Source: Agelas oroides
Lineage: Eukaryota > Porifera > Demospongiae > Agelasida > Agelasidae
Length of the DNA stretch: 64,000 bases
Assembly: GCA_949130485.1 (NCBI GenBank)
Contig: OX422183.1
Location: forward strand, 11,506,543 to 11,570,542
Reading direction: 5' to 3'
Translations under genes and position numbers: made by a program
Part shown: piece by piece, positions 9,867 to 62,444 of the stretch
Layout of the letters: each line of letters starts with the position of its first letter
Numbering within the stretch: the stretch's first letter is position 1
Notes under the pieces: model-generated
Seen by the model: the letters and a program-made list of their open reading frames with translations, nothing else
The model's database searches: none
Told to the model about the DNA's origin: nothing

Positions 9867-12686
9867 ATGGAGGATACGACGGAAACAGCAAACACTTTCG
9901 GGCGATTCAGCCCTAGCATTATCTACGACTACATCAAAGATGGTGTCTATCCCGATTCATTCTCTAAGGCAGATAAGGGCTCTCTCAGAAAGAGAGCGAA
10001 GTTTTTCACCGTGAAAGACGCAGAGCTGTACTACCAGAGTCGCTCAAAAGCAGGTAAGACACGACATGATTTATAACCATTGTTTTTGAGCACTAACTCG
10101 TACAGCATGATGATGCCATTCAATGATGGAATATTACTGATTGATACACTTTACTTGATCTTACAGGAGTAATAGAGGAAAGATTGGTGGTGGAGGATGT
10201 GAACAAGAGGAGCAGAGTCATGGAGAGCATCCACAACAGCAGCCATTTTGGAATCAACCGCACTTTGGACTTGGTTTCCTCAAAATATTACTGGCCAGGA
10301 CTAACTAATGATGTCAAGCAATATGTAAGTACTACATGCACTAACACTACATATCTAGCTTGTGTCTGTTACAGTATGTGTATGTGTCATGTGTCCTAAA
10401 GATTGATCATAATCTCATTATATTTTTCAGGTTCGCTCGTGTGATATATGTCAAAGAAACAATCACAAGCTGCAGAAGGCTCCAGGGTCTCTAAGGCCAA
10501 TTCCAGTTCCATCAAAGCTATGGTCTCAAGTGGGTATGGATTTGATTGGCCCATTGCCTAAGACGTCTAGAGGAAATCAGTACATAGTAACTCTCACAGA
10601 CTATTTCACAAAATGGGCTGAGGCAGCACCACTTCCAGACAAATCAGCTGTTGGAGTGGCAAGGTTCATTTACTCTGTAAGTTTCTATCATTAGCATGTT
10701 ATTGGGTACTTTATGTAGAAGTAGGAGTAAGCACAATATGCTAGCATAATAGGTGAGAGCATAGCATATTATTGATAGGAGTGTAGTACAGCTGACCACT
10801 TCCTGGGTGATATTAATATCTGTTTTTGTTCTCATAGGTCATGTCGAATGGGTTGCCCTGAGACTCTGATCACCGACCAAGGTAGAGAGTTTGTAAATGA
10901 ATTGTCATCCGAGCTATACCAAATCACCAACACTGATCACAGGATAACTAGTGCCTATCATCCACAGGTTTGTTTTGTTTTTGTTTAGGTTAGCTGAGAT
11001 GCTTACTATTACAATACTTAAAAAACATTAAAAATGTAAATAGATGTAGGGATGGCATGCCAAAAAGTATGCAAACAAGGTAGGGATAATGCATGAAAGC
11101 AAAGGTCAACATATTGGCAAAGCCCCATCCTACATCTTTTTAACACTACAGCTGAGGGTCATACTAGCCTCATTCCCAGGCCACGTGGGAGGAGGAAATG
11201 GCCCGAGAACGAGGCTACAGCCATACTGCCAGTAAAGGTTGTGAACTCGTGGTACGTTTTAGGAAGACCCCCATGCACTGTCTAACTGTAGTGTGAGAAA
11301 GATGTAGGGATGGGGCTTTGCCAATGGGGAAAAGACCGTGCCAGCCATGCTACTGCCCGCTGCCGATTTCGCTTGTGACTAGTCTCGCTTCCAGACCAAT
11401 GACCGTGGTCTTTGGTCTGGGAACGAGACTTCGTGTGCGCATGCGTACAAAATTAGAAAATGGCGTCCTAAGCAACGGACAGCAGCCTCAGTGTGTTGTG
11501 AATGGCTTTTGTTGACCAGGGTGAATTTGAAGCTATGAAGACGCTGAGTAGTCGTAGAGCTCCGCGCTGTGACAAGCATCCGTTTCGTGCTACAACGACG
11601 GTGAGTACTTAAACCGTTTTCGAGATATCATTCTTGAACATAGTGGGCTGAAGAAGAAGAATACGAAAAATGGCACTTTCGATACCGCACACTTTTGCAT
11701 TTAGCTGCCTTCCGCGTGGCTTTTGGCCACTTATATGAGTCTTGCTGATCACAAAGGCACTCAAAGAGGAAGCCTGGGCGCTTAAATAAGCTTTGGTGTG
11801 TTTGTGGTGAAGTTATACGGCTTTTGCTTAAGTATTGCGTATATTGCGTGTCGGCGCCATACCTACATAGAGAGTCTACCGACGCTCTGATGAAGTACTT
11901 ACTAATTCACAGAGCAATGAACTGACAGAGCGCTTCAACCAAACACTTTCAAGATGCCTGGCCAAGATCACGGATGAATCTCACTCAGACTGGGATATGA
12001 AGATAGACACAGTTCTGTTAGGCTACAGGGCATCACGACAGAGATCAACAAAGTTCTCTTCCTACTTCATGCTTTTCCAGCAGGAAATGAGACTCCCGAT
12101 CCATAACGATGTCGGACCCAAGAGTAGTATGGGTGATTGTGAAAAGCATGATGTAAGTCATGTGTGTTATGAATAATCATTGTTTGATGTCATGTGTGTA
12201 TACGTATGTGTAGATGTGTTTGAAGTCGTGTGTTATACATGTGGTTGTGAACAATAATTTTTTGTTTGTATACAGGACTCTGAGAAAACTCCTACTCCAC
12301 CAGACACCCAATCGGATGAAAGCACCACTTCCAGAGACACTGATGCTCTCATTGAGGCGCTACTTGCAGCACGCAAGCAAGCGTTTAGCAAAGCTGAAGA
12401 AAACATCACAGCAGCACAGAAAAAGCAGAAAGAGGAATATGATAGAAAGCATCAGCCTAAAGTGCTCAAAGTTGGAACTGTAGTGTTGTTAGAAAATACT
12501 ATGCAGAAGCAGCGGAAGGGAGGAAAGCTTGAGCCTCTCTGGTTAGGGCCTTATACCATCCACAGAGATCTTGGAAAGGGCTTGTATGAGTTGTCCAACC
12601 AGGCTGGAATGGTGCTGAAGAAAAAGGCCAACATTGCACGACTCAAAGAATATGTCATAACATATTTTGTCCAGGCAACAGTATAA
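9867..12686 (+). CDS. Intron-bearing Gypsy-type integrase gene (GIN/Ginger-like)
   Basis: Encodes a DDE-type integrase. In order along the locus: an H2C2 zinc-binding domain (His pair near 10220-10250, Cys pair in SCDICQ near 10440); the catalytic core with the first Asp in MDLIGPLPK (about 10540), the second in ITDQGREF (about 10880) and the Glu in TERFNQTL (about 11930); and a C-terminal GPY/F-like module (LGPYTI, about 12545). The coding blocks are separated by about five short GT-AG introns, one of which (10970-11912) is enlarged by two inserted repeats. LTR elements lack such introns; this exon pattern is known from Ginger DNA transposons and from domesticated GIN genes. It looks whole or nearly so, with at most about one apparent break. 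No long terminal repeats were found around it. The final codons and stop lie in segmental repeat A (from about 12657), so the 3' end may not be the original one. Single-copy status in the window favours a domesticated gene or a lone Ginger copy. Confidence 0.7.
11016..11325. mobile_element. Foldback element, second copy, truncated right arm
   Basis: Same left arm as 5868-6288. The middle (11145-11300) is present in the opposite orientation and the right arm stops at ggcttt-gccaat, where another repeat begins. It lies in an intron of the integrase gene. Its inner TAGCCT hairpin is at 11164-11217. Confidence 0.8.
11326..11889 (-). mobile_element. Interspersed repeat, unbroken inverted copy of 2020-3570
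   Basis: Reverse complement of 2020-2526 joined to 3511-3570, lacking the 984-bp insertion. It begins with ggggaaaagaccg and ends with the AGAGTC..GACTCT-type hairpin. It sits in the integrase intron directly beside the truncated foldback copy, suggesting one inserted into the other. Confidence 0.8.
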
Positions 12687-12848
12687 CCAGCAGTATAATT
12701 ATCACATCAACACCAGTATCATAGTTGCTATATAAAAGTGACTACCTTATAGAGACAACTTGCATGTACTTCCGTTTGCATGATGTAAATATTCATGACC
12801 TCAACTGTTATGGTATGAACACAGGATATATCTTGCAAGAAGTGTCCA

Positions 12849-12862
12849 GTCACCATGGCAAC
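12849..12862 (+). promoter_or_regulatory. RFX-type X-box, unit A
   Basis: GTCACCATGGCAAC matches the palindromic RFX consensus (GTNRCC..GGYAAC). It lies about 40 bases upstream of TATATATAG at 12902-12910. Confidence 0.5.
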
Positions 12863-12901
12863 AGAAATTCATCGTTTGTATCCTATAAATTGTGCCTGTC
12901 C

Positions 12902-12910
12902 TATATATAG
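12902..12910 (+). promoter_or_regulatory. TATA-like box, unit A
   Basis: TATATATAG inside the most strongly conserved noncoding block of all units (attgtgcctgtcc before, tatcacctgagg after). Confidence 0.45.
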
Positions 12911-13558
12911 TATCACCTGAGGATCATATTTCACATGAATTCTGTTATATACCAATGAACACTTAGCCTCCAACCATTGGATGTTTACTAGGGGTAATTA
13001 GGAAACTGTGTGCTTATACAAGTACGGGTAAATGCCTTAGTATGTTCTGCCTGAAAATCTAACTCAAATTCACAGGCAAAATGTGCAACAATCCACTAAA
13101 TGACAATGCTCATAATTATGGTTTTCTCCTTGATCAATGATCAATGAGGTACATTTTCTAAAATTGTTTGAAACGCCTTGTCTCATCTATTGGGTTTGTA
13201 GTTAGGCTTTTTTGAGTAATGAATCAGAGATACAAAACATTAATGCAGCACAATACTGGCATCTTACTGCTGTTTGCCTTGTGGAATTGATGATGACATT
13301 TAATACAGATCAACAATAACACATCACACTAGTGGCAGATAAAGTAAACAATGAGACAAATGTGCCTTGTATGTAGCACTGACTATAGTGGGGTAGAAGT
13401 ATGTCTTAGCCACTTTCAAAAAGTGTTGCCAGCAGTGTGAAGTTTCAGCATGCAAAAAATATTATGCTTGTTCTTCTGTTGCTGATTGATTGACTGGGCA
13501 GTTGTGGTTACTCAGGTCTTCTACTCTGTACTCTGCACATGACTATTAGATGTTGTAC

Positions 13559-13643
13559 TACAATAGCCCAAACACAAGAAATGCATGCTTGCCTCATCGA
13601 TTATGATACAAGCATGCATTTCTTGTCTTTGGGCTATTGTAGT
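13559..13643. repeat. Inverted repeat unique to unit A
   Basis: ctacaatagcccaaacacaagaaatgcatgctt (first half) is mirrored at 13610-13643. In the other units only the right-hand arm exists (cttcttgtctttggactattgtag), so the left arm is a local inverted duplication. Confidence 0.75.
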
Positions 13644-14034
13644 TTCAATTTATCAAGAAGTAAGCTTTTATACTAGCAATGTTCCACTCTATGTACAACA
13701 TATCTAATATCTAACAGTCATAATGTTTTGTTGAATCAACAATAGACGAATGTCTAGCCCACTAGGCAATGAATTTGCTTACACAATCTGCCTTATCATG
13801 GCGTACGGTAGTACGCCATATGTAGGGATGACCCCGAAAAAAAATGGCGGCCACATTCAAAGTGCACAAATGACACGCTCGAAATGTCCGCGTTAGATAA
13901 GTCAACGGCCTCCATGAGCCATATCAGACATTATCGAGTGCTTCCATGGGCAACAGGATCGTTAAATTTGCTGGAAAGCATCGCTAAGTACCTGACAGTC
14001 AAGTCGCTAAAAAAGGCAAATCGTCTATCTTCTG

Positions 14035-14035
<1 letters not shown>

Positions 14036-14065
<30 letters not shown>

Positions 14066-14072
14066 CTTCTTT
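14036..14072. repeat. Microsatellite (TTC)n
   Basis: About twelve TTC units. Confidence 0.9.
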
Positions 14073-14440
14073 TGCTCACCACGATAGCACGACAACGGCT
14101 GAAGCTATTACAACAATTCAAACGCGAAAGATCAGCATAAATTACTGGGTATTATACCCACCACTCATCGTTCTCAAAGAAAGAAGTCGAATTAATCGGC
14201 GATTCTCAGGTAACCCCACGCTTATGCTTGCTGCTATACGCCATTTTGTTAGAATAGAATATTCATAGCGATTACGTCAACAGAAGTTCAACAGCTACAG
14301 CACGTGAAGTTGGCATGCAGCTGCGGTTATTCTACTTCCGTAGAGAGCTTGACGATCGATTGATTCCCAAACGATTGCATATGTTGCTACTTTCATACAG
14401 CAGTTGACGTACTTGTGCTGGATTTGACAAGGAACGCAGT

Positions 14441-14602
14441 ATGTGTAACGTCCACAAGAAACGGGCGCGGGATAAGCAGAACTATCTGCGAAACAAAGAA
14501 AGCAAAAGGCAAGCGTCCCGTAACAAGTACTGGAAGAACCCGGAAAAACACTCTTACTCTCCAAGGGTTCCTTTACCACAGTTATGCCTTACCTCTTTAT
14601 GA
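14441..14602 (+). CDS. Short Lys/Arg-rich frame, possible transposon protein N-terminus
   Basis: A 53-codon frame with many basic residues and the motif NKYWKNPEK. Repeated K-x-NPE-type motifs with basic helices are common at the N-terminus of Helitron/PIF1-type replicase proteins of marine invertebrates, so this may be a fragment of one. It may also end at a splice donor. It lies inside the composite insertion. Confidence 0.3.
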   Translation: MCNVHKKRARDKQNYLRNKESKRQASRNKYWKNPEKHSYSPRVPLPQLCLTSL

Positions 14603-14951
14603 CCTATGTACCTGCCACCCACCATACACAACCTACACACACCTGCCCACAATGTATAACCAGCTATAGAAACTGTTCCTTGGACAACACACAACATACA
14701 GTGTTACAACCCTGTCATACAACAGAACAGGTAGACAGTCATGTATATACCACAGTGCCTTAGAACAACCACTCACACACACATGCACATACCCAATTAG
14801 ACAACAGTTACACCCATGATTCCATTGTCAAGTGGACAAGTGCAAACAGCTAACATCCTCCAGAAATCCATCAACATCAACAATAAACTACATAACAAGT
14901 CATTTCACTTGGGGTGTGGTTACACAACAACAACAAAAAAACAACAGAAAC

Positions 14952-15629
14952 AAGTCACAAAAAAGTTTGCCAAACGCAAACAAGCACATGTAGGGATGAA
15001 ATCCTCAAAAACCAACCAAACAAGACGGGAACGACACCACAATACTTTTACACCATCCCTACATCTTGTGCCATTTTGCCACCTGTACACAACACAAAAC
15101 CCTCTACATTTGTACTTATTAGCCCACACCAACCACAAACAAACATAGTACTTCACTCCATTCAACTATCTCACAAAATAACCCATCCTTCACAAAGCAT
15201 TACAAAATTACCGCTACTCACTTCACAGCCACCTGTATACAAGACAACCCATATCTATCATGCTAAACAGGCATAAAACTTAACAACATAATGCACATTC
15301 CAACATAACACACACACTCACCACTCCTCACTCACTCCACACCTTCTACACACAACTTGGACCATACCTGCTACACTCAGTAGCAACCACCAACAACACA
15401 ACATACTCACTATGCACAACACACCCACGCCACACCCTTCCATCTACAAGACAACCCTCTTCTACACACAACTAAAAAACAAATACAAACACACAGTTTT
15501 GGCAAAATGGCACAAGATGTAGGGATGGTGTAAAAGTATTGTGGTGTCGTTCCCGTCTTGTTTGGTTGGTTTTTGAGGATTTCATCCCTACATGTGCTTG
15601 TTTGCGTTTGGCAAACTTTTTTGTGACTT
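14952..15629. mobile_element. Foldback element with about 130-bp arms and C/A-rich centre
   Basis: The left arm (aagtcacaaaaaagtttgcc ... ccatccctacatcttgtgcc) is repeated in reverse at 15490-15629. The centre is strongly C/A-rich on the plus strand with almost no G. The frames crossing it (14816-15276) are low-complexity and not supported as genes. The arms contain the same tgtagggatg word as the elements at 2020 and 5868. Confidence 0.85.
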
Positions 15630-15866
15630 TATACAGAGAAGCAGATGGCTAGTCATTCTAAGACCTTGTGCACACCACACCTACAGTCTGTGGGGGGTGC
15701 AATTCCTTGTGATAATATATTCATAACTGTGTTATCCCATGTCCAATATATTTATTCATTTATTACATGATTGGACCAAACAAGGGATGAACAACACAAG
15801 CAGTATTGAAATCTTTTATTGCATGCCATATCTTTAACCCCTAAGTGACAAAAGGCAGCTTAGAAG

Positions 15867-16132
15867 GTGACTTCCAAGCAAGCTGTCAACACCAACCACC
15901 TTCTGAGTCCCATCCGCTTCTTCCTTGTCAACATCACTGAATACCCAAATGGGTCACCAAACACCTTGAATATTTCAGCTGATGATACATCAGGAATCAT
16001 TCAGTCATTAACTATGTTCGAAAGGCGGCGGACAGTTTTGGCGTATTATGTGGAGGTTGACTATGTGTTTGCTGTGGCAGCAGAAAATGATATTTGTGTC
16101 AGAGAGTTCAGTAATGCAAGCAAAGCAGCATG
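15867..16132 (+). pseudogene. FN3 exon remnant, unit A
   Basis: The deduced piece keeps an FN3 core: PIRFFLVNITEY (C strand), TLNISADD, then VDYVFAVAAEN (F strand) and EFSNAS (G strand). The frame is continuous here, unlike in units B and C, where the same exon lacks 8 bases before the MFERR block. The first part of the domain is shortened, the exon end is replaced by a MITE (16138-16491), and no TM or tail exons follow in this unit. It is therefore a non-functional relic that preserves the ancestral frame. Confidence 0.65.
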
Positions 16133-16137
16133 CCTAG

Positions 16138-16259
16138 CAGGGTTTCATACAGGATTTTGAGATGGGGGGGGGGGGGGGGGGGGGGGGGGAAACAGGATGG
16201 TAGCAGGATGATCATAGTGTGCGAAACATGTGCATGCCTACTAATGGGGTCTGGGGGCA

Positions 16260-16295
<36 letters not shown>

Positions 16296-16491
16296 AGGAA
16301 AATTTTGAATTTACATCCTCTCAGATTGCTTCTGACGCAATCTGGGACAAAATTTCGATGACACATACTTATGTTCAGTAACATGTATATAGCAACTATA
16401 CTCAATTTCAAGATTTCTGGGGGGGGGGAAATTGTGGCTGGGGGTGGAAAATTCCAGCCCCCCCCCCCCCGCCCCTCTGTATGAAACCCTG
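16138..16491. mobile_element. hAT-like MITE with CAGGG ends, 5-bp duplication, in the FN3 exon
   Basis: Termini CAGGGTTTCATACAG and complement; flanked by CCTAG at 16133-16137 and 16492-16496. The inside is dominated by a 26-base G run (16164-16189), a 34-base C run (16262-16295) and smaller G and C runs that can fold back. CAGGG ends with 5-bp duplications fit the hAT5-type group. Confidence 0.75.
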
Positions 16492-17094
16492 CCTAGGTAT
16501 AAGCACACATATGTTAGGTAGTTAACTACTGAAAGATTTACAGATTGCTGACAGGGTAAGATAGCGTCTTCAGGATGAATGCAGAATTTCTAATAGCTTG
16601 CCATTCATCAAAGTCCTAAAACGAACTTAGGACCCCTATTTCCACAACTAAGTCAATCTTACTTTCTGTCTCTCATCTCTATTTCTGTCAGAGGTTCTTA
16701 GTGAAGGAAGTCTGAGGGTACATGCATTCCTCAATTTGAGAGCCTCTCAGGTCAATTTTGAAGCCATTTTAGGCTACTGCTTGTGATTTCTGTGCCGTAC
16801 ACCGAATGGAACTGCAAAGCAAAGTTGAATCAAGCCCCCAACAAACCAGGGATAACACTTGGTGTTTTCTCATCATAGCTGCTTCACTGCCATATCAAAT
16901 TTTGACCCTGAGTCAATGATGTTAGTGACTTCTCCAAACCTTACTATTGGTGGTACTAATACCAACGAGAGAGAGTCAAGGCTACGTTGATATTATGACC
17001 AACCTGCCCAAATTGGAGGTCAGCGATGAGAAGCTAACATCTAGTAAGTAGTCCATCTTAGTGAAGACAGATAATATACACTGGAGTAGTGTTA

Positions 17095-17434
17095 CCATAA
17101 TCTCATGAAAGAGCGCCGACTCACAAAAGAGTGCCTGCCCCCTACTTTTGGCCCAATTTCCAGTATAGGGTCAAAGTTTACTCAAATGAGCGCCCACCCT
17201 GGAGCGAGCTTAATTGAGAAGCACAGCCTCAAGCGCTATGCATTGAGGTAAGAAACTTTGTACCGTTGTATGTTATTGCTTGTCCAATTACTTACTTCGA
17301 GGGCATCGAGTCACTTTAAACATGACAAGGGCGCTCCTTGGTTAAATGTGGAAACACTTGAAAGAGCGCCCACGCCCCTCTTTGGTGGACTTGTATAAGG
17401 TGCTCCACCATGGGCGCTCTTTGTGAGACTACAG
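17095..17434. mobile_element. TA-flanked MITE, CC(A/G)TAATCTC family, unit A copy
   Basis: Ends CCATAATCTCATGAAAGAGC and GCTCTTTGTGAGACTACAG, flanked by TA. The inside holds repeated AAAGAGCGCC-type motifs. Copies are at 26317-26716, about 36190-36362, 39390-39712 and 52598-53109. Confidence 0.7.
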
Positions 17435-18556
17435 TATTTGTTTTTGTCAGATTTCTTCTTGTCTGGACCAAACAATAACGTTGGTTAGCCAATCTGAGAT
17501 GGTGTACTCCATAGTAAGACCGTATACCTGGTACCCTGCTCTTTTTCCCTCTGGCACTTGCACACATCTCTTCAGATAACTGACAGATACCCAGACAGTC
17601 TACCAAAACCAGCTATGAGCTACATGACAGATGTCTAAACACTGTTGCATGTGTGCTATCACCAGTAATCATCCTTCAGTATTGTAGTTAGGCCCATCTT
17701 TTAACTCAGCATGTGTTGATCTTTGTATACCAGTAACAACAATTTGATTGTGTGCTTCACTTTGTTATCTCACTCATCTGTGCTGTACTGTACTGCATGA
17801 AAATATAGTGCAAACTATAATGATTAGTCAGGCTAAAATACTTCATTATCCCATTTCTAAGTTTTCTGCTTGTTCTGAGTCTTTCGCTTGCAAAATCAAT
17901 GTGCCACTATTCATCCAAAACTTGCAAACTTCTGTCATCATGTGCACTGCATACATGATAAACTAAGCTATGTGGTTCTGAACAAGTTTTGTGGCAACAT
18001 ATTTATCACGCTAAGCACAGGATTTAACAACAGGCCAGCTACCTAATACTATAGGATATACTTGCGAAATTTCTGTCATTATGTACACTACGCACTTAAC
18101 TTTAACTGTGCATGCTATGGTGCCCAGCTCTCTGTTGTTCATGTTTAGAGATAGCAAAATGTGATAAATGTTGTATCCTACATGAGTGCATCTCCAATAC
18201 CTAAATTCTCATGTCAAATTTGTACAGTTACAGAACCACAAAATAACATAACATATTTTGTCCAGGCAACAGTATAACAAGCAGTATTATCACATCAATT
18301 ATTAGACCATCGCAATTAAAATCGGTCCCACGGTATGTCAATATATTTACAATTACAGACCCCCCTATACTCCATGTTTTGTCCAAGCAACAATATTACC
18401 AGCAGTATCAACAGCAGTATCATAGTTATTGTGAAAGTGTATAGCAACTGCCTGATACAGACAACTTGCATGTGCTCTTCTGGTTGCATGATGTAAATAT
18501 TCATGACCTCAATTGTTATGGTATGAACACAGGATATAGCTTGCAAGAAGTGTCCA

Positions 18557-18570
18557 GTCACCATGGCAAC
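18557..18570 (+). promoter_or_regulatory. RFX-type X-box, unit B
   Basis: GTCACCATGGCAAC, identical to units A, C and D; TATATATAG follows at 18610-18618. Confidence 0.5.
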
Positions 18571-19878
18571 AGAAATTCATCGTTTGTATCCCATAAATTG
18601 TGCCTGTCCTATATATAGTATCACCTGAGGATCATATTTCACATGAATTCTGTTATATATCAATGAACACTTAGCCTCCAACCATTGGATGTTTACTAGG
18701 GGTAATTAGGAAACTGTGTGCTTATACTAGTACGGGTAAATGCCTTAGAATGATCTGCCTGAAAACATAGTATACTATACCTCAAGTTCACAGGCAAAAG
18801 GCACATGCAAAATGTGCAACAATCCACTAATGCTCATATGGTTTTCTCCTTGATCAATGATCAATGAAGTACATTTTCTAAAATTGTTTGAAACGCCTTG
18901 TCTCATCTATTGGGTTTGTAGTTAGGCTTTTTTGAGTAATGAATCAGAGATACAAAACATTAATACAGCACAATACTGGCATCTTACTGCTGTTTGCTTT
19001 AAATATGGGATGGGATTGATGATGAAGCAGGCATGTGATGACATTTGATACAGATCAGCAATAACAACTCACAATGACATAAACAATGAGACAAATGTTC
19101 TAAATTTGTATGTAGCACTGATTATAGTGGGGTACCACTATATGTTTCAGCCACTTTCAAGAAGTGTTGCCAACATGCTGGGCAGTTGCTGTACTCAACA
19201 GTAAGTTGGTGTGAAGCGCAGCATGCAAAAAAATATTATGCTTGTTCTTCTGGAGGAGGGTGGGGCTGACTGGGCAGTTGTACGTATGTGGTTACTCAGG
19301 TCCTCTACTCTGTACTCTGCATTTGATGTCGATTCATTGATCATGATTGACAAGACTTCTTGTCTTTGGACTATTGTAGTTCCAAAGTTTCAAGAAGTAA
19401 GCTTTTATACTAACAATGTTAATTTTCCCACTCTATGTGCATAATCTAATATCCTATATGTAATCATAATGTTTTGTTGAATCAACAATAAACGGATGTC
19501 TAGCCCACTAGGCAATGAATTTGCACACATGAATTCTGCATGGTATACAGAGAAGCAGATAACTATAGTCACAGTCTGTGGGGGGTGCAATTGAGAATAT
19601 GTGAGAATATATTCATATATACTTGTGTTATTGCATGTCCATATTATTCATTTATCACATGATTGCACAAACAAGGGCTGGACCATACATGTAGTATTCA
19701 TGGTGAAATCTTTTATTGCAGTCGGCTATTGCATAGCATATCTTTAACCCCTAAGTGACAAAAGGCAGCTCAGAAGGTGACAAAGGTCAGAGATGAAGTC
19801 TAAACTGTCAGTGAGTGAGGTTGTAACCACTTTCCATTAACTGTTTAAGTTTGAGAACCCTACTTTCCCCCTTTTCAG

Positions 19879-20208
19879 GACCTCCCAGCAAGCCAACAAC
19901 ACCCATCATCAATGCCACCACCATCCAAACACTTTCTCTGTTGATTTTGGGTCAAGCCCTATCCACTTCTTTCTCGTCAACATCACTGAATACCCAAATG
20001 GGTCACCAAACACCTTGAATATTTCAGCTGATGATACATCAGGAATCATTCACTATGTTTGAAAGACGGCAGACAATTTTGGTGCATTATGTGGAAATGA
20101 GACTTTCTAGTCAATTAAACAATCAGGTTGACTATGTGTTTACTGTGGCAGCAGAAAATGATATTGGTGTTGGAGAGTTCAGTAATGCAACCAGCCCTGG
20201 ACGCCCAG
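19879..20208 (+). pseudogene. FN3 exon, unit B (disrupted)
   Basis: Bounded by a good acceptor (ccccttttcag) and donor (cccag|gtgagc). It encodes in pieces PSKPTTPIINATTIQTL, FFLVNITEYPNG, NISADDTSGIIHY, VDYVFTVAAENDIGVGEFSNA, a typical FN3 strand order. Compared with unit E the first part lacks 10 bases, and compared with unit A the middle lacks 8 bases and meets TGA. The exon therefore cannot be read through. The same changes in unit C show they predate the B/C duplication. Possible escape by exon skipping is open, because neighbouring exons are phase compatible in part. Confidence 0.6.
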
Positions 20209-21152
20209 GTGAGCTCACATAGCGTTACGTGGATTCTAGGTGTTAACTACTGAAAGGTTTAAAAATTGCTGACAGGGTAAGATAGATGGACGCAGAATTT
20301 ATACTAGCTTGCCATCCATGAAGTGTAGTTACACCTTGTACATTTTGGGGACAGAAATTTCACCGTCATCAAAGTCCTGAAATTAACTTAGGAACCCCAT
20401 TTACACAACTGAGTGTGAAGGTCAATCTTACTTTCTGTCTCTCATCTCTATCTCTTATCCATGTCCCACAACTACCTCAACTATGATGGACTGTAATCCA
20501 GAAGATGGTAAGCTTGTACGTAAGCTATTGGACTCATAATGGGATTAGTTTATTATGGTTCCTAAATGCAAGTAACATTGAATGAACAATATGAGCCCTT
20601 GCTAGCAGACAGCCTGTGAATTGCTACTATTAGTAAGTATTGATGCTTCCTGGGAAACGGTTAATTTCTGGGTGCTCCTATTAACAGACTCGGTTACAAA
20701 ATATGTACTTGTGTCCACACCTGGTATACTAAGAACTGACAAAATATCTACATGTGTACTTGTGTCTGGTATACTCACCTGCCCCCCTAGTGCAGTAAAT
20801 GACCAGCTGGGAATCAATACATTGGAGCAACCTCTACTACAAACTGTAGTACACAATTAATTTCTTGTCTCAGGGGGAGCTGGCCTTGATTTTTTTTTGA
20901 AGACCAGCTTTTTGTATATGTTGCAGTTCGGAAGAAAAATCTCACATAATTATTGTGATTGTTGAAAATATCACTAATAAGGGAGGGACCCATACCCTCT
21001 GCATCATATGCCTTATTATGTAAATATGTATGTCTGCTGCTTCATATTCATATCATATGCCTTATTATGCAAATATATATGTCTGCTGCTTCATATTCCC
21101 TTTTTCACTCAATAGTGTTTCACTAAAAACTCTTTCTCCATTTCCTCTTCAG

Positions 21153-25789: not shown

Positions 25790-26316
25790 CAGAAATAAGT
25801 TATTCATGTTTTGTAAACTTGCATGGCAACAGTGATGTAGACAGGATCCTGAAGATACCTGCGGACAACAAGGGCACACAGAATTTGTCAGAGCTTGTTA
25901 GTGAAGCACACAAATATTTCAGGATGTCTGAGGGTACACACATTCCTGAATTTGAGAGCCTCTCAGGTCAGTTTTGAAGCCATTTTTAGGCTACTGCATG
26001 GCAGATGATTTCTGTGTCCTACACCGAATGGAACTGCAAAGCAAAGTTTAATCAAGCCCCCAACAAACCAGGGCTAACACTTGGTATTTTCTCATTATAG
26101 CTGCTTCACTGCCATATCAAATTTTGACCCTGAGTCAATGATGTTAGTGACTTCTCCAAACCTTACTATTGGTGGTACTAATACCAACGAGAGAGAGTCA
26201 AGGCTACGTTGATATTATGACCAACCTGCCCAAATTGGAGGTCAGCAATGAGAAGCTAACATCTAGTAGGTAGTCCATTTTAGCAAAGACAGATAATATA
26301 CACTGGAGTAGTGTTA

Positions 26317-26716
26317 CCATAGTCTCATGAAAGAGCGCCAACTCACAAAAGAGTGCCTGCCCCCTACTTTTGGCCCAATTTCCGGTATAGGGTCAAAGTT
26401 TACTGAAATGAGCGCCCACCCTGGAGTTTGGCCCAATTTACGGTATAGGGTCAAAGTTTACTCAAATGAGCGCCCACCCTGGAGCGAGCTTAATTGAGAA
26501 GCACAGCCTCAAGCGCTATGCATTGAGGTAAGAAACTTTGTACCGTTGTATGTTATTGCTTGTCCAATTACTTACTTCGAGGGCATTGAGTCACTTTAAA
26601 CATGACAAGGGCGCTCCATGGTTAAATGTGGAAACACTCAAAAGAGCACCCACGCCTCTCTTTGGCAGACTTGTATAAGGTGCTCCACCCATGGGCGCTC
26701 TTTTGTGAGACTACAG
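26317..26716. mobile_element. TA-flanked MITE, CC(A/G)TAATCTC family, unit B copy
   Basis: As the unit A copy but with a 59-bp internal tandem duplication (tttggcccaattt..., 26360-26475). Confidence 0.7.
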
Positions 26717-53400: not shown

Positions 53401-56400
53401 ATAATACTCAGCAACTCTCGGGAACATTTTCACCTAATTTGGAGTGAATTGGAATTGAGACACAACGTGAATCAGACATATGATAACAGAACTGATACAT
53501 TTTACTTCTGCTTTCGTAATGTGACTGAGGATTTCCTCTTCCTGGAATACTGTGATGTGACGCAATCTTGTGAAAGTGGCTCGACTTTCTGCTGCAGTGT
53601 TTGGGCTGAGTTTGTTTCAAGAACACATGTGAATGTGGCTGGCAATAGAGGTAAGGATTTCTTGACTGATGAGAATGGACTTCATTCAGAATTTGCTTGT
53701 CAACACAAGTCTCTCAGAATATTGGTTGGTTGTCCTATAAATGACAGCACGTAATCCAATCAATCTTGTAGTTAACTTGTAGTTTCCACATGTGCCATCC
53801 CACTTAGACTCATTCCTAGGCCCTGCCCAGCTTTCTGTTGCTTCCGGAACTAGGAACGAGAGTAGCAGCCATGTTGCTGGTCAACATATCGGCTTTGTTG
53901 GACTGTGTTCTTAACCCGTGGAAAAAATTGCCAGTACATGTTGGGGTATATACCTGCGTGGGAAACATGGTTCTATAATTATGTTGCACTTATTCTCACA
54001 CTAGAGTGATATTTGTCTGTGTTATAAATGATTGTACTTCTACCTGCTCACAATCATGTGAAATGGCTATAAACATTGTGTTGTTTAGAACTGTTCGTAG
54101 ATGTATGCTGAGTCATTTTGCCTTATTGACAGATGGTGGATGTTCAGACTCTCTGCTTGCTATCATGCAGTTTGGTAAGGGTAGCACAAGTATAACCATG
54201 CAGTGCTTTAAAATTTTAATGCAAAGTGTATTGGGGTAAGTCAAATAGCACAAAGGCTAATGCAGGAACTTTCCTAGCAGCATAAGAAACAAAACAGCAA
54301 AGCAAAAAGAAATAATATGTACAGTATTACACACATTAATTGAATAGGCTGAGATAACACCAAACTCACAAGAGCTGCCATGTTTTGCCTTGTTCCTATA
54401 CCACTACTAGCTTTTTCTGTGCAGACTAGATGAGGGCCTGCAGGCTAACAATTGCAAGGAGCTAAGCTTTTAGAGACAATTATGTACATGTTCACAAATG
54501 TAAAAATGATCAATCCTCAAGTTTTGCAGAGTGTATAGTCTGCCAGTGTTGTGTAGATCAATGATAGAAAAGTTATTATGAACGCATGCAATAATGTACA
54601 TTGATCAAACCTACACATATCCATGTCTTATTCTTTCACCTCAAATTTTACGTAAATATAATTATGTACCTTTGTATGCTTCTGCATAAGAGCATGAAGT
54701 ATGCTTATATGGACTATACTCCTCCACAGATGCAATAACACTGCCAACATCAAGAGTCTCCACAACACCAGGTTAGCTCCAGCAGCTGGATTACTCGGAG
54801 TGTGTACAAAAATCTCAACAAGATTATTCTTTCTCCTGACAACAGATACAACATCCATTACACAAAGCAGTATATCTCCATGTAAGCTCTTTGTATAGCA
54901 AATTATTGCTTCTATATTAATATGCTACAACTGTTATCTTACTATGGATATAAATCAGGATCAGCTGCATTACAGATTAAAGTGCAACAGCAGCAACTAT
55001 CTTCACGAACCAATGTGTAAACATGTATACCCATACCCCCTGCCTTACTATGAGTGCAACAAACAGAAATCTCCTGACAGTGGTGACTTTAGGGCTAAAA
55101 TTTAATAAGTTGCTTTTGCACCAAGCAATGCTTGCAAAATGCTATGTTGAACAACAGTGATGCTGAATTTGCTTACAGTAATCAACAGCAAATACTTATC
55201 AATTTCTGTCTGCTTCTAACTTCCACTTCCCGGACTCTAACTTTCTTACTCCATTTATGTGTGGCAGCCTCCAACTTTGATAGCTTCTGGACAAAATTAC
55301 TGGTGATGGTATTAGTACCATACTTTTACCGGTACGTATATGTAGAGTGACAGAGGTGTAGCTGTCTGTGGGCATCTAAGGGTGTCTTTAGATTGTGTAC
55401 TCCTGTTGACAGTTCTTTGTGATCCTTGTGAAAAATGTCTTTGTCTAGCAATCCATGCATGCACACTGAAACATGTTACATCTCATTGCCATTCTCAGGC
55501 ACAAATCCCTTTAGAATGATTGCAACTGGTATTTCTCACTTTCCATAGCTTCTCCTCATGGATGTTTATTAGTGTGGCTGGAAGTCCTGCTCTCAGAAGA
55601 GTTTAATTGTTGCTATTGTAGTTGACCTTTATAAGTAAACTTTTCTTCTCATTTTTTGAACCAGTTATAGTTAACCATCTGACTCCATATCACTGCATGC
55701 AATGTAGTTTTAAAGACAAGTTTCTACCATCAAAATCTCCACGGGAGCTTATGGATCCCTATTATACATAATGCAGAGCAGTTTCTGTAGCTATACTAGC
55801 CAGATAAACATTGCTTAACCATATTTATTCGTAAACCCTGCCAGCTGAAAGATTCACATGTACTTGTACAACTTTTATCATCCTAAACCCATGTGATGAG
55901 CATGTGTACACGTATTGTGATAATTATCTGTTAGTATATCTAGTTACTCTAGTATGTTTAATGATGATTATCTCACAACAGATACTAGTGTGATGTCTAG
56001 TAGTACTCCAGTTGCAACACCAAACACACCACAAGGTATTGATGAGGTACAAAATTATCAGCTGGCAAATTACTGTGACCAGATGCTGTGGCAATGCTCA
56101 TCACAATTTTGTGCAGCTACTATATGGGTGGCGTTGATTTAGGAGTAGGATCAGCATGAACACCAGTCCTGTATGTCAGTAATGTTTACATAAGTGAGTT
56201 GTTTATTCTGAAGTTATGATATCAGATTGACTAGGGCAATCATTTGGTCCAGTCTAGCCTTAGTTCATGACTCAATCTTTTGTCTGACAGATGACGACTT
56301 GATGATAGTTCTTGGTGCTCTTCTTCCAATTGCCGGTATCACCATTTTTGTTGTAACACTGACAGTATTCTGCTGCTGCTATCGGCATCTCACCAAAAAG

Positions 56401-56592
56401 ACACCACATTACCACGTAAGTGACAGCTATTTGATATCTGAATAGTTGGTTGTATAAGTATCCACTCTGTTCAGAAAAGGCACATTTCCCCCCACACAGG
56501 TTATGGAGCAGCAGCAGCCCAAACTTGAACTTAAGCCAGCTGTATACAGATCACAGGAGGACATGACTAGTGCTAAAGTAGTTCATTCATAG
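47481..56592 (+). CDS. Receptor 2: Cys-rich FN3-like type I membrane receptor
   Basis: Probable exons: 47481-47553 (signal peptide, MGEPSLFTVNLLVPLAIVAM; a donor GTACGT gives phase 1, while the next GTAAGT would give phase 2); 49865-50164 (FN3-like domain with LIWNPPESC, YEVLYT, YCIQVRAV and many Cys); 53324-53650 (second Cys-rich domain, several N-glycosylation sites such as NQT and NRT); 54133-54174, 54730-54771 and 55982-56035 (short Ser/Thr/Pro stalk exons); 56291-56415 (TM, VLGALLPIAGITIFVVTLTV, then CCCYRH); 56500-56592 (tail ...KPAVYRSQEDM...). All ectodomain exons start and end in phase 1; the TM-tail junction is phase 0. Function: cell-surface recognition or adhesion, with a short tail holding one tyrosine. 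The signal exon is the least certain part, being 2.3 kb upstream with two repeats in the intron. Confidence 0.65.
47838..48448. mobile_element. Non-autonomous MULE-like element, TAGCCTCG ends
   Basis: 44-bp ends (aGCCTCGTACCCAGGCC...) inverted at 48405-48448. Flanks tccctagga / tcctaggac match with one shift. Lies in the first intron of receptor 2. Confidence 0.65.
48646..49163. mobile_element. GGGGCGAGCCTGAGC-ended element
   Basis: 15-16-bp inverted ends; an internal block (cagagtgcagc..tggc..ac) occurs twice (about 48820 and 48910). No clear target duplication. Confidence 0.45.
49808..49862. repeat. Microsatellite (CA)n just before an exon
   Basis: The CA tract ends 2 bases before the acceptor of the FN3-like exon (49865), partly taking the place of a polypyrimidine tract. 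Confidence 0.85.
50234..50935. mobile_element. CTCAGGTG-ended foldback element in receptor 2 intron
   Basis: CTCAGGTGTGTTAAGGACTG and complement at 50908-50935; a second inner pair (aaaggcggttatt / aataaccgccttt) at about 50432 and 50704. No frame. Confidence 0.7.
51000..52039. other. Intron sequence without recognised feature
   Basis: An inverted pair (ggcggaacagaa at 51140 and ttctgttccgcc at 51388) suggests another decayed element. Frames at 51132-51566 have no known motif. Confidence 0.4.
52040..52110. mobile_element. TAGCCTCG foldback element, damaged right end
   Basis: TAGCCTCGTTCCCAGGCTC pairs with GAGAGCCTGGGACCGA; the last bases of the right arm are lost. Confidence 0.55.
52598..53109. 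mobile_element. TA-flanked MITE, CCGTAATCTC family, long copy
   Basis: Same family as in units A-D but with the inner part (cactttgc..gagcttaattgag-like) in the opposite orientation relative to the ends, and with extra sequence (52740-52920). Lies in the receptor 2 intron. Confidence 0.65.
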
Positions 56593-56770: not shown

Positions 56771-58432
56771 ATGCCACTCCTAAAGACAAATTTCGTGCAG
56801 TGGCTATTCCTGGCCATGGTCACCCACTCCTTGGAATTGTCACTAGGTAAGTTACTGCACATTGTATAAAACAGTCAAGGGGTGGGGCATGTAACTGAGC
56901 AGCTTCTTGCATGCAAATTTCATTGTAGCTCCACCATGTGTGATAGCAATAGCTTATATATCTAGATCCCAAGTTAGGCACCAGTAGCTAACTACTGCCA
57001 TAATTATGCTGATATAATTATGGATTATATATGAACTATAGCTTGGGTGCCCTTAGGTGAAGCAAATTTAGTCCCCTATCATCCTCCAATCTTGACCAAG
57101 TTGTAGTCTTACATCCTCAAAATGATGCTCCTGCAATAAGGTACATTGTGCCGTGTATGATTTGGAGTGTACATGCCTGTACAGGTTACACCAAGATCAA
57201 CTACAAATTTTGAACTTATATATATTATGCAGGACAAAATGTGGTCTTCATGCGTCAGCCACAAGATACTGAAGCGGTCAGCGGCACTGATGCCTTCTTT
57301 CCCTGCACCTACACTGGTACAAGAGGAGCACCACATTGGTCAGTGAATCAGACACGTACATACCCTGTGAGTGCATTGCCTTCAGGACACAGCCACAATG
57401 ACACTGGACTGATTGTTCACAGTGTGGATATATCCATGAATGCAACCAAGTACCAGTGTTGCTTTGAATTTCATGTTGGCCAAGGAGTCATTGAACCAAT
57501 CTGCAGCACAGTAGGAATGCTAATCATCATCACTGCAGGTCAGAATTTTTTTTTTTTAAATCACCCTAAAATGGATACGGCCAGCCACTTGACTGCTGCT
57601 TTGCATGAAATAGGTTGCCCCCATAGTCTGCGCTGTCCTGTATACTGTGTGACTATATGAATTGCACTGTTGTATTACATGATGACATGAAACAACAGTA
57701 CCTACTAGGGATATCGGATTCTGATTGTTTATGTTACTGGCCATGGCCTAAATTGCTGCCTACAAGTAGCATGCTGTCACAAATAAGCAGAACTTTTTTA
57801 GCATGTAACCAGGCACTTCATGAAGTCTAGACTTGTTGGTTCTAGCCAAATGTTATGAATTTAACAAACCAGCAAGTTATCTTGCCTATAACCATTTGGA
57901 AACCGCGGCCTTTTTTGAGGCTGCTGGAAAATATATCTGCCATCACAGAGCCATATTTAAGCCTAGCACATGTTCAGCTACATTCTGATATTGCTTTATT
58001 CATTGTACTTGGCAGTAATACTCATTGCTGATTTGGACTGATCTGAATAGCTGATTATAATTCTCTTTCAGGTTTTACTCAGTATCCTACTTCAGTGGTA
58101 ACTACACCTGGTGAAGTGGGCAGATTTCTGTGCACAGTAGTTGCAACAAGTGTATGCAACATCCAGTGGAGAATCAACCACACACTCATAATAGACTCCG
58201 AAGCAGATGCATACAGTATCCCTGGTAGAGCAGGAACGGGGATGCTATCATCAACACTACACGTGCTTGCAGCACCACAACACAATAACAGTGAGGTTGA
58301 ATGTTGTACTTACAGCGAAACTGGAGAGGAAATTTGCACCAGCTCTGTGAATCTGACTATCACTGGTGTGCAAAACATACCAGGTTGGTGTGTGACTTTA
58401 TGTGTAACACACACACACACACACACATACGT

Positions 58433-58471
<39 letters not shown>

Positions 58472-61400
58472 CATACTTGCACACCGACACACACACACAA
58501 TTGCACCAATCTTGTATGTAGTTAATTCCTCTTCAGTTACAAATGTAATCAAACAATTATTATAAGATACTGTGCAGTACTTTATCACACAAAAGCAAAC
58601 TTTTAGCTAGTACCATTAATTACAGTTTGCTAGTGTCAGAAGCTTAGCTATGAACCGCTATGGGCAAGAAGACATAGCTATCCACTTTATTTTGAATAGC
58701 AATTTAGAAAACTTCTTATACGAATTTGTGTACTAAGTCACACAAGTTTGAGCTTACCACTGTGTATAGTCCCCAGACCCCACCTTCATGAGAGGGCTGG
58801 GTTTGGGCACAAGACCAACTACTATGACTACTATGTGTAGGTTAGAAACCTAACCAGAGGTTCTTAGGGCTATAGAAGCGCGAGGAAGTGTTTACATAAT
58901 TCCTGAGGGCGAAGCCCGAAGGGATTATGTAAACACTTCCGAGGCTTCTGAAGCCCTAAGAACCGAGGGTGCGGTTTCTAACCGGCTTAGAAAATGGTGC
59001 AACGTTACATAATCCGCGCCAAAATTTACAAAATGACGTCATAATCGTCGGTTAATATATAGTCGAAAAATGAGCTAGCCGTGGCTGTGGTGGCGATCGA
59101 GCTGTGGATTATACAGCCATGAAACGTGTTGTTTGAGTGTAGTAAGCCAAGCGCTATCTAAAGAAACCTGCTGTAACTTCCCTAGCCTGTCTACTTGGCC
59201 AAGAACAGTGGTGGTTGGTTTGTACCGAGTTGGATCCAATGCTCAAGCGTATTCGTTGTGATGGCAGCTGCGCTAGGGGTAGTAGGTTACTCAATCGCGA
59301 CTGTTGTGGACATGGCCTGCGATGTTGCGCTACCAGCCGCTCGCCTGTTGGACGAGATTCTTGCCGACCTGGTCAGCGAGCTGCGCTACTACTACTAGCC
59401 GCTCGCCTATTGGACGAGATTCTTGTCGACCTTGCCTGCGAGCTACGCTACTAGCCCGCTCGGCTGTTGAACGAGATTCTTGTGGACCTGACTTGCGAGC
59501 TACGCTACTAGCCGCTCGGCTGTTGAACGAGTTTCTTGCAGCACTGCTACACGAAACGGAGTGGATCGGGCTTGGTTGGGACTTGGAAGAGCTTTCCAGT
59601 TAATAATCTCAGTTAATGGTTTGTGAAACCCACAAAATACAGACCTATTCACTCAGGTTTCTATTTGAGATAGAAACCTGCATGAGGTATTCTACGTGAA
59701 ATAAAAGACCTCATTAACACTTCAACATCAAAGCTAGAATATTCATAAATTTTCTAATGATTCTCAAGAGCCACCTGCTGCAACAGGAGTGACCTCTTGG
59801 CTTTTTGAAGCATTTGCACACTGTACTCCTTATGTATGGAGTTCTATGGCGCATGGCAACTTCTTGCCATGCGCCATAGAACTCCATACTTAAGGACCAA
59901 ACTTTGGACATTTTTATAAAATCAACCATAAGGTCCAAGACTTTCATCTTTCAGATTTGGGTAATTTAGGCTACTAAAATTGACATATAAAATTGGCATC
60001 TCCATAGCAACAGGAATAATTTTAGGCCACACCCCTTGCAGCCGCTCTATATAACCGACGATTATGACGTCATTTTGCAAATTTTGGCGCGGATTATGTA
60101 ACGTTGCACCATTTTCTAAGCCGGTTAGAAACCGCACCCTTGGTTCTTAGGGCTTCAGAAGCCTCGGAAGTGTTTACATAATCCCTTCGGGCTTCGCCCT
60201 CAGGAATTATGTAAACACTTCCTCGCGCTTCTATAGCCCTAAGAACCTCTGGTTAGGTTTCTAACCTACACATAATTATATAGTAATTCTGTATTGATTG
60301 TCAAAAACCTTCCCAGCACTTCTGTCTGACCACTTTGCTGCTCATCCTGTTAGTCTACTCCTGCTGCTTCGGTAATTATGTCATAATTGCCATTGTTCGC
60401 TACATCTCCACAGGTGTCCCCACCCTCTCCCTCCTCTCTTCCACCTCCTCCTCTCTCACTGTTGAGGTACAACTATCTCCAGAGGGAGTTCCGCCTATAC
60501 TGTCCATTGCAGTGAATTTTACCAATCCTCCTGGTCTTGTACAATCAGTTCCTGGACCTTTCTCTCCTGGACAGATAGTTACAACAACTTTGAGTAACCT
60601 TGAAGCTGAGACTGAGCACAATTTTACAGTTTTTGCCTTCAACTTTAATGGAATAAGCCCTGCCTCACCTGACACTAGTTTCAGAACAGGTATGTCACTA
60701 CATGAGTTATCCCATGCACTGCATGCATTGGTTGCATGAATATATTATGACACCAAACTCATCTTGCTACATATGTGTTTCCGTCAGTGGTGTAATAAAT
60801 AGAGGGCTATAATATATAGACTCATTTCCTTTTTTCATGAGGAAGAGCCTAGGTACAAAGTAGCCTCGTTCCCGGGCTCTCCCCATGCTGCAAGCGATGG
60901 AAAGCTGGGCAAGGCCTGGGAACGAGGCTATAGGTACAAGGCTAGCCATAATAACCACATTTGGCACGAAACTAGGCTCTGCTTCTTACAAACTATCGAA
61001 TTATGTGAGTGGTTAGCCAAACATCATATTCATAACACAGCTATACTTCAATTGTGTATTAAAGCTAGCATCATTCAGCTTAATAGCTTACCATCTCTGT
61101 AAACTTTTAGCCATAGCTACATGCAAAATTGAACAATTGGTTTGGATCACTAAATGTATTAGAGAGGTTATTTGTTACTGCTTCCTTCCTCAGATCAAGT
61201 TGCAGAGGACAGCCTCAATCCTGGAATCATTGCAGGAATTGCAGTCGCCTGCATCATAACTGTAGTGTGCATCACTACAGTAATATGTTTGATCTGTACA
61301 TGTTATAGATGTAGGCGGTCCTTACCAAAATCAAGGCTTTGGTCACTTCCCACTCTTCCTACTGCAATGACTTGTGAGTCAGAATAGAGGGAGCAGTATG

Positions 61401-62444
61401 AATACATTGACATACATGCTGATGTTATCTGGTGGGAGGGGTGCATGCAGCTAATCCTTCTATATTTCAGTTTGTGGTTTATATTCAGCTAGCCATCACA
61501 AATGCAGTTGAACTTTTATTGATGTGATGTGTCAAGCAATTCTTGAACCTGCATGGTCCTTCATCACTTCAGCTCATCAGCGCAGTCGAGACATTGAGCA
61601 GCGGCCAGCTCCAGACATTCGTGAGAGGGTAACATCATCATACATTGTTGATAATACTAAACCACAGGTATTTTTATTATCATAGCTAGCTATATAGGTG
61701 CATGATATCAACACCCAAGGAAACCATAATCATAATGTAACAGGTTAGATAAAGCTTTTAAACTCAATGTTTAAGATAGTCGACAGCCACCCAACATGCT
61801 TTCCAAGGTCTTATTTTGCTTTTTTTAAGTGCATTACCTAGCTACTATATATGTATGGTGCATTGTACTGATACTGTCTACTGTGAGCTAGTTTATAGTA
61901 CTGTTACAACTATTTGTAGAAGCTGCAAGTGTACTACCCTCATGCAATTTTCAACTTCACTTTATGTCATTATTGTGTTTTGGGGCACTGTCAGACATAG
62001 CTAACAATCACACAGTGGAATATATACATAGCTAGCCTGAGCATAAAGTTGTGTTAAACTGACGTGTAGCACTATGTGAGCTTCGTCGTAAGGACTAAGG
62101 GGCATGCTCCCCTCCCAAAGTACAATTGATAGACAATAGGAGAGAACTATTACACAGAGACAACAATAACAAGGACAGAGCCTCTGATCTCTCACCATGC
62201 ATAATTTTGGCTAGCATTCTGACATCATGCAATGTACAATTTTGAATGTACTCAGGTACAGCCAGATGAGAGTAGACAAGCGTCTCGAGTCCAGTCAGAC
62301 AGCGATCCAGGCAGTCCAAGTGCTGAAGATGATCAGACAAGACATCATCATAGAATGGTGCCAGAAGTTGATCAGCTCCAGTATGAACATTCTCCATATG
62401 CTGAAAGGAGGAAACTTAGATTACCACCCAAGGAAGGACAATAA
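56771..62444 (+). CDS. Receptor 3: two Ig domains, FN3, TM, tyrosine-containing tail
   Basis: Exons: 56771-56846 (signal peptide, MPLLKTNFVQWLFLAMVTHS, donor G|GTAAGT); 57233-57538 (Ig domain: FFPCTYTG, HWSVN, DISMNATKYQCCF); 58072-58383 (Ig domain: FLCTVVA, IQWRIN, NSEVECCTY); 60414-60689 (FN3: SSLTVEVQLSPEG, ETEHNFTVFAFNFNG, SPDTSF); 61194-61373 (TM: GIIAGIAVACIITVVCITTV then CTCYRCRRS); 61573-61667 and 62256-62444 (tail with SSYIVD, LQYEHSPY, acidic SAEDD stretch, TAA). Phases: 1 for all ectodomain junctions, then 1 and 0. Every junction checks, so the model appears complete. It is a cell-surface receptor or adhesion protein, and tail tyrosines could serve as phosphorylation sites; no strict ITIM/ITAM is present. 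It starts 178 bases after the stop of receptor 2. The FN3 exon is separated from the Ig exons by a 1.4-kb element. Confidence 0.8.
58409..58500. repeat. Microsatellite (CA)n
   Basis: CA tract with interruptions in the intron after the second Ig exon. Confidence 0.9.
58834..60272. mobile_element. Palindromic-armed DNA element (TGTGTAGG ends) in receptor 3 intron
   Basis: About 225-bp inverted arms (TGTGTAGGTTAGAAACC... and complement), flanked by TA. Each arm is itself a set of hairpins (aagtgtttacataat...attatgtaaacactt; ggttagaaacc). The centre contains about four imperfect 63-bp units (59300-59548, ...gccgctcgcctgttggacgag...). No transposase frame. Confidence 0.85.
59300..59548. repeat. 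About four imperfect 63-bp tandem units
   Basis: Unit built on cgctactagccgctcg...gttgaacgagattcttg; the overlapping short frames arise from the repetition. Confidence 0.8.
60859..60930. mobile_element. 72-bp TAGCCTCG micro-MITE
   Basis: Hairpin ends TAGCCTCGTTCCCGGGC / GGCCTGGGAACGAGGCTA; flanks taggtacaa (60850-60858 and 60931-60939), again 9 bp. Confidence 0.75.

Follow-up and report, generated by a model that had tools for sequence, protein, structure and literature searches.

Do tandem receptor genes with immunoglobulin (Ig) and fibronectin type III (FN3) domains, lying beside decayed copies, mark a self/non-self recognition locus in the sponge Agelas oroides? The question is raised by a stretch of 64,000 nucleotides of contig OX422183.1 (C1:11506543-11570542; the whole stretch is called the window), in which an earlier note, made from the sequence alone, had described three receptor genes or gene families side by side, one of them in six mostly decayed segmental units, and had proposed a recognition role. 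The best explanation, and in our judgement a probable one, is a cluster of two receptor genes, F2 and F3, beside mostly dead copies of the 3' end of a third gene, P. This large gene, 45 kb upstream of the window, is the parent of the repeated family (family 1). The genome searched comprised 259.3 Mb in 141 contigs, and a 264 kb region around the window was fetched in one piece (C1:11436543-11700542).

The window holds two receptor genes, where the earlier note had counted three. The F3 model (56,771-62,444, plus strand, seven exons, 477 amino acids) encodes a signal peptide, two Ig domains, an FN3 domain, a transmembrane (TM) segment, and two tail exons, the signal peptide and TM being assigned by reading the sequence. 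With its signal peptide, Ig domains, one TM, and cytoplasmic tail, F3 has the build of a type I receptor of the immunoglobulin superfamily (IgSF). In Pfam, I-set scored above its cut-off (4.5e-7), while Ig_3 (7e-6) and fn3 (0.0031) scored below theirs, and the ectodomain gave weak PDB sequence matches to titin, Dscam, and DCC. The position at which the earlier note had ended the cluster, 62444, is the last base of the F3 stop codon. The F3 intron between the second Ig domain and FN3 contains a 1.44 kb element (58832-60274) with 230-bp inverted ends at 98%, resembling a small DNA transposon.

The F2 model (47,481-56,592, plus strand, eight exons, 349 amino acids) is ordered as signal peptide, FN3-like domain, a cysteine-rich domain without a match, stalk, TM, and short tail. 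Its FN3 assignment is weak (Pfam fn3 E 0.12, 13.1 bits against a cut-off of 25; hhalign probability 27%); no FN3 or Ig domain was found at the curated cut-off, and Pfam revealed no Ig domain in F2. The second domain had no match, and a search of PDB sequences with the ectodomain returned nothing up to E 10. In both genes, which were modelled exon by exon, each intron as far as the TM exon is in phase 1, with GT/AG ends, and the frames are open. The common strand, the phase-1 ectodomain exons, the single TM, and the tyrosines in the tails, all features that had been noted before, were borne out. Pattern scans found one YxxM motif in the F2 tail and NPAY with two YxN sites in the P tail; the F3 tail bears tyrosines. 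The same scans found no immunoreceptor tyrosine-based inhibitory (ITIM), activation (ITAM), or switch (ITSM) motif in the tails of F2, F3, or P, and Pfam gave no intracellular tyrosine kinase domain in F2, F3, or the scanned part of P.

The third supposed receptor family is the array of segmental units, which were defined by self-BLAST of the window. Their number was confirmed: six units span 12.66-44.6 kb on the same strand as F2 and F3, with matches such as 16705-19995 versus 39002-42227 (89%), 17147-20241 versus 26427-29483 (95%), and 12741-13431 versus 18447-19172 (87%). Chance can be set aside as the origin of the units, because full-length matches to the 2.56 kb 5' part of the unit number five, counting unit 2 itself, and every one lies on C1 11.47-11.76 Mb. 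Genome-wide, with 40 of 873 candidates scored, long matches to this 5' part were confined to C1 10.99-11.77 Mb, and elsewhere the matches were only pieces around a 180-bp dispersed repeat.

The exons carried by the units trace back to P. Upstream of its last FN3 exon, P has two FN3 exons (C1 11456874-11457362 and 11455519-11456492), an Ig exon (11452763-11453065), another Ig near 11438855, and, at the edge of the 264 kb region, the end of a further Ig-like exon (weak, E 0.04). Pfam fn3 and I-set both scored above cut-off, and the exons and Pfam domains together give an architecture that runs from Ig domains through FN3 domains to TM and tail. PDB matches were spread across titin, Robo, contactin, Dscam, and NCAM without pointing to a single subfamily. 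On its predicted domains, P is a large NCAM/Dscam-like adhesion-type gene; it resembles NCAM, contactin, Dscam, and Robo in its Ig-then-FN3 order, one TM, and tail, with three FN3 domains found and an N-terminal end that lies beyond the fetched region. Within P, C1:11445412-11449587 is a 4.1 kb minisatellite with more than 1,300 codons open in two frames.

Two P exons upstream of the last FN3 were searched genome-wide: one Ig exon matched only itself at high identity, the next best Ig reaching at most 41% identity, and the second FN3 likewise matched only itself at high identity. Blastn within the 264 kb region covered the first FN3 and the upstream Ig; no P exon upstream of the last FN3 had a copy there, and the few short matches farther upstream fell outside exons. 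The tail exon with NPAY, in contrast, has eight matches in the genome (C1 11.461-11.769 Mb), and all last-FN3 and tail matches of P sit on C1 11.46-11.77 Mb. Since one Ig exon and the second FN3 of P are single copy and its 3' exons are multiplied, family 1 in the window is, as judged from exon content, the multiplied 3' end of P (last FN3, TM, and NPAY tail). To our knowledge, such a multiplied 3' end of an NCAM/Dscam-type gene is unusual. A truncated 3' copy of P spread as segmental duplications into the six units; the copying and the breaks are seen in the sequence, and the units would now be mostly dead.

The units therefore cannot count as a receptor gene family, since the most that any of them holds is the last FN3, TM, and tail of P. 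Their reading as a receptor repertoire was rejected: no Ig exon and neither of the other FN3 domains of P was found in them. The claim that the family is mostly decayed holds for the four FN3 matches of the window (units 1, 2, 3, and 5; u1, u2, u3, and u5), all broken or truncated, and for the TM and tail exons in that only u2 and u3 hold them, but there these exons are open. A scan at a loose cut-off that recovered the F2 and F3 controls found no signal-peptide exon common to u2, u3, and c2 (copies of the P family elsewhere in the 264 kb region are labelled c2, c484, c574, and c626m). For c2, u2, and u3, it gave 8, 13, and 10 candidates at one cut-off (24, 21, and 18 on the minus-strand control) and 8, 18, and 17 at the other (35, 27, and 22), none of them common to all three copies, and an own signal peptide was rejected; a strict scan gave 0 in each (7, 6, and 5 on the minus strand), yet missed that of F3 itself. 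As the evidence stands, units 2 and 3, the best kept, could not by themselves make a surface receptor. Three side observations concern unit 1. An open frame at its start (12258-12683) resembles, weakly and below cut-off (E 0.0036), the SH3-like domain of a Tf2-1-type retroelement, one 2 kb step inside it (14001-16000) has a strong GC skew (-0.29), and a perfect 130-bp inverted repeat (14952-15081 and 15500-15629) lies in a stretch mostly unmatched by the other units.

Beyond the window, the two Ig domains of F3 matched 13 places genome-wide, all on C1: nine first-Ig loci, two second-Ig loci (F3 and its twin), and two weak matches at 10.28 Mb. The nine first-Ig loci lie at 11.047, 11.164, 11.564, 11.688, 11.791(-), 11.863(-), 11.876, 11.899(-), and 11.913 Mb; none has a stop, and a second, distant member used as query recovered the same nine and none besides. 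All nine lie within C1 11.05-11.91 Mb. Identity to the first Ig domain of F3 is 32-44% in seven of the eight other copies. Two F3-type Ig exons 188 kb apart (C1:11687788-11688087 and 11876139-11876438) encode an identical protein; they may stem from a duplication of very recent date or from gene conversion, or be one exon duplicated in the assembly. The FN3/TM query of F3 gave seven matches at five places (C1 10.832, 10.905, 11.567, and 11.914-11.915 Mb, and C6). Among the F3-type loci, a TM was observed in F3 and in its twin at 11.914 Mb alone, and a weak match at 10.83 Mb also runs over the TM part. F2 has four or five loci on C1 11.12-11.91 Mb, at 11.12-11.13(-), 11.56, 11.66, and 11.90 Mb, the count depending on whether two exons 18 kb apart at 11.12-11.13(-) form one gene or two. 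The copy at 11.66 Mb has both ectodomain exons open and its TM unmatched, and two F2-type matches ran through stops, in at least one case past the exon end. The F2-F3 pair occurs a second time, at 11.904-11.915 Mb. The cluster, in mixed orientation, covers about 0.9 Mb of C1 (11.05-11.92 Mb) and is larger than the window. Between receptor copies, at C1:11642001-11645575, lie exons that resemble those of an Rh/ammonium transporter.

Ratios of nonsynonymous to synonymous change (omega) were low between paralogues. The FN3-like exon of F2 gave 0.24 against the 11.904-11.915 Mb twin and 0.36 and 0.41 against other relatives, and exon 3 gave 0.16-0.17 against the 11.66 Mb copy, with synonymous divergence (dS) above 1. 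Between F3 and its twin, omega was 0.18 for the second Ig domain (0.09 on a shorter piece), 0.21 for FN3, and 0.25 for a 104-nt piece of the first Ig domain (2 changes). The paralogue ectodomains of F2 and F3 are under purifying selection (omega 0.09-0.41). Both families, small and segment-specific by their outer domains, would grow by ordinary duplication under such selection. A genuine receptor cluster with gene turnover, of a known kind, is supported by these predicted loci. The earlier claim of turnover stands on the nine loci of F3 type and the four or five of F2 type and loses the decayed array, which is no argument for receptor turnover because it is a truncated P 3' end and holds no recognition domains.

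Several observations weigh against the best explanation given at the outset. Relatives of the FN3/TM part of F3 occur outside the segment (weaker matches at C1 10.83 and 10.90 Mb, TM only on C6), and the genome has FN3 exon clusters in many further places (150 of 1,900 candidates were scored), which makes the present one far from unique. Between F3 and its twin, omega was 1.39 for the TM (10 changes) and 0.52 for the last tail exon, with few changes; these parts evolve faster than the ectodomain, which is unusual for a signalling tail. In family 1, the TM and tail are open in most copies (6 of 8 and 8 of 8), more conserved than expected of dead sequence, and tail omega was 0.03-0.43 over 28 pairs, with the same range over the 21 pairs without the copy c635m. 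Given this conservation, some units may be in use.

The state of the copies bears on this point. The last FN3 exon has nine matches in the 264 kb region, of which only P is intact: c2, u2, and u3 have a 10-nt deletion in common, an extra 8-nt deletion brings u2 and u3 back into frame with a stop left behind, a stop also interrupts c574, and the copies u1, u5, c484, and c626m are cut short. Farther away, at 11.749 and 11.764 Mb, it matches each time as two pieces in different frames. The common deletion indicates that these FN3 exons were multiplied after breakage, or were converted. The TM exon has eight matches in the region, of which six (P, c2, c484, u2, u3, and c574) keep an open frame and the splice site at either end, one is truncated, and one is frame-shifted. 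None of the eight tail matches in the genome has an internal stop; seven cover the full query and c635m is without its first 14 residues, while the stop codon is gone in c756 and comes one codon late in c585. Two more short tail fragments lie in the region.

It could be argued that the TM and tail exons are live cassettes, with P joining the phase-1 donor of its FN3 exons to the phase-1 acceptor of the TM exon in units downstream; one ectodomain would then gain many near-identical tails, and the skipped FN3 exon would decay unit by unit. Such splicing agrees with the acceptor and donor kept in the six well-preserved TM copies, with TM indels that are all multiples of three in five copies (8 of 8, versus 12 of 75 in nearby non-coding DNA), and with tail omega values well below the pseudo-omega of 0.69-0.89 in five non-coding alignments. 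Variable sites among seven tail copies number 5, 9, and 15 at codon positions 1, 2, and 3. The simulated chance of one copy staying open was 0.33 at 1.8% per branch and 0.51 at 1.2%. For TM and tail together, it was 0.036 for three copies and 0.004 for five at 1.8%, and 0.13 and 0.03 at 1.2%, which also speaks for cassettes in use. However, low tail omega was rejected as proof of use, since the disabled FN3 exon is similarly low (0.28, 0.25, 0.21, and 0.22 for P against c2, u2, u3, and c574; 0.21-1.79 over all 36 pairs, the high values involving the short fragment c484), and the constraint on TM and tail may therefore be old and predate the breakage. Copies are also mosaic, the TM-tail part of u3 matching P at 93.4% over 2,268 bp (blastn), so gene conversion can refresh them; some TM indels are common to several copies or fall in a run of AAG; between P and the units lie other genes and the open reading frames of transposons; and the tails differ so little that the benefit is hardly evident. 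We regard this splicing as quite improbable.

A recent death of the units deserves somewhat more weight but is still unlikely. The units would then be full or partial genes that were selected until lately and are all pseudogenes now, as omega values well below 1 between the better-kept copies suggest for FN3, TM, and tail exons alike, together with an FN3 exon disabled in every copy of the region but P. Yet the same disabling deletion in c2, u2, and u3 implies that the exon was probably disabled before it was multiplied, while TM and tail stayed open. We keep to two receptor genes beside mostly dead copies of the P 3' end.

With the array assigned to P, the recognition role has to be judged on F2 and F3. 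They would most likely bind a ligand through their outer domains and signal through the tail, and we conclude that their predicted function is signalling or adhesion. In an allorecognition complex, F2- and F3-type receptors of C1 11.05-11.92 Mb would be polymorphic and govern fusion and rejection, like Hydractinia Alr1 and Alr2. A divergent IgSF type I family grouped in a single segment speaks for this, but selection between the paralogues is purifying and not diversifying, the tails are without ITIM or ITAM, the decayed array belongs to P, and a freshwater sponge study reports tandem clusters as common (PMC7385117). We hold this role to be very improbable. Conserved paralogue ectodomains are unlike a hypervariable recognition surface, although balancing selection within a gene is invisible to a comparison of paralogues. 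That the whole of C1 11.05-11.92 Mb, with its nine receptor loci of F3 type and four or five of F2 type, is a sponge histocompatibility complex, in which the retained TM-tail cassettes of P serve the same recognition machinery, seems to us likewise very improbable. By analogy, an allorecognition role would be possible but is unsupported, and the self/non-self role put forward earlier found no support in anything tested.

The locus can be compared with several known systems. Alr proteins carry ITAM- or ITIM-like tails, whereas F3 has neither motif and has an FN3 domain. The Hydractinia allorecognition complex consists of single-pass IgSF receptors of low mutual identity grouped in one region (PMC11067881). 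The nine loci of the F3 first Ig domain are likewise clustered in one interval; the Alr complex, however, has 41 loci, and the likeness drawn here is one of architecture. Of the three points on which the analogy is built, clustering and the IgSF type I build hold, and the third, the broken copies, falls to the units of P. In Ephydatia muelleri, tandem or segmental clusters of integrins, E3 ligases, and mGABA receptors have been described (PMC7385117). They are alike in having duplicated genes with a common exon structure, although the gene families differ, and because of them the clustering pattern is not diagnostic. A literature search for such sponge receptor clusters turned up, among the papers listed and judged by title, no report on the topic. 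The Ig domains of the receptor tyrosine kinase (RTK) and adhesion molecule of Geodia cydonium are polymorphic. An RTK and an adhesion molecule with Ig-like domains from this sponge are cited in PMC12018476 and PMC11999971, respectively. They are likewise sponge surface proteins with Ig-like domains, compared here by description only, and F3 differs from the RTK in its FN3 domain and in that no kinase domain was found. The usual sponge candidate for fusion and rejection is the aggregation factor, and we know of no sponge gene for which that role is established. In an Amphimedon graft transcriptome study, cell adhesion and aggregation-factor genes were not significantly enriched (PMC5450542).

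Table 1. Exons of F2 and F3 and segmental units of family 1, in window coordinates.
Feature	Position	Strand	Basis
Unit 1, decayed; sole exon a partial last FN3 at about 15906-16137	12656..16686	+	self-BLAST, exon matches
Unit 2	16705..26130	+	self-BLAST
Unit 2, last FN3 exon; 10-nt and 8-nt deletions, in-frame stop, splice sites kept	19879..20208	+	
Unit 2, TM exon, open	21153..21288	+	
Unit 2, cytoplasmic tail exon (NPAY), open, 18 nt shorter than parent	22101..22392	+	
Unit 3	25921..36151	+	self-BLAST
Unit 3, last FN3 exon; 10-nt and 8-nt deletions as in unit 2, in-frame stop	29124..29450	+	
Unit 3, TM exon, open	30394..30526	+	
Unit 3, cytoplasmic tail exon (NPAY), open	32165..32474	+	
Unit 4; search gave no FN3, TM, or tail exon	36186..38603	+	
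Unit 5; FN3 exon fragment from 42083	38911..42227	+	
Unit 6; search gave no exon	42318..44575	+	
F2 exon 1, signal peptide	47481..47553	+	
F2 exon 2, Cys-rich FN3-like domain	49865..50164	+	
F2 exon 3, Cys-rich domain without match	53324..53650	+	
F2 exons 4-6, proposed short stalk (54133-54174, 54846-54881, 55982-56035)	54133..56035	+	splice sites and phase only
F2 exons 7-8, TM (56291-56415) and tail (56500-56592)	56291..56592	+	
F3 exon 1, signal peptide	56771..56846	+	
F3 exon 2, Ig domain 1	57233..57538	+	
F3 exon 3, Ig domain 2 (I-set)	58072..58383	+	
F3 exon 4, FN3 domain	60414..60689	+	
F3 exon 5, TM	61194..61373	+	
F3 exons 6-7, cytoplasmic tail (61573-61667, 62256-62444), stop codon ends at 62444	61573..62444	+	

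The GC content of the window is 0.36-0.56 in 2 kb steps, mostly 0.38-0.46. A GC-rich 60-bp minisatellite occupies 3669-5335 (27.8 copies, 98% match, several frames open). A tRNA gene at 754-826 (minus strand) reached the Rfam gathering score. At 7258-8043 (minus strand), one open frame of 261 amino acids has a C-terminus with a glycine zipper (weak in Pfam); it has three further copies at C1 11.491, 11.617, and 11.620 Mb and distant relatives at C1 32.29 Mb and on C9 and C22.

For sponge immunogenetics, the locus carries a caution and a possible use. An array of decayed receptor-like copies may be no more than the repeated 3' end of an adhesion gene next to it. Ig receptors that form a compact family on a single chromosome would, for their part, give graft tests a short list of genes to genotype.

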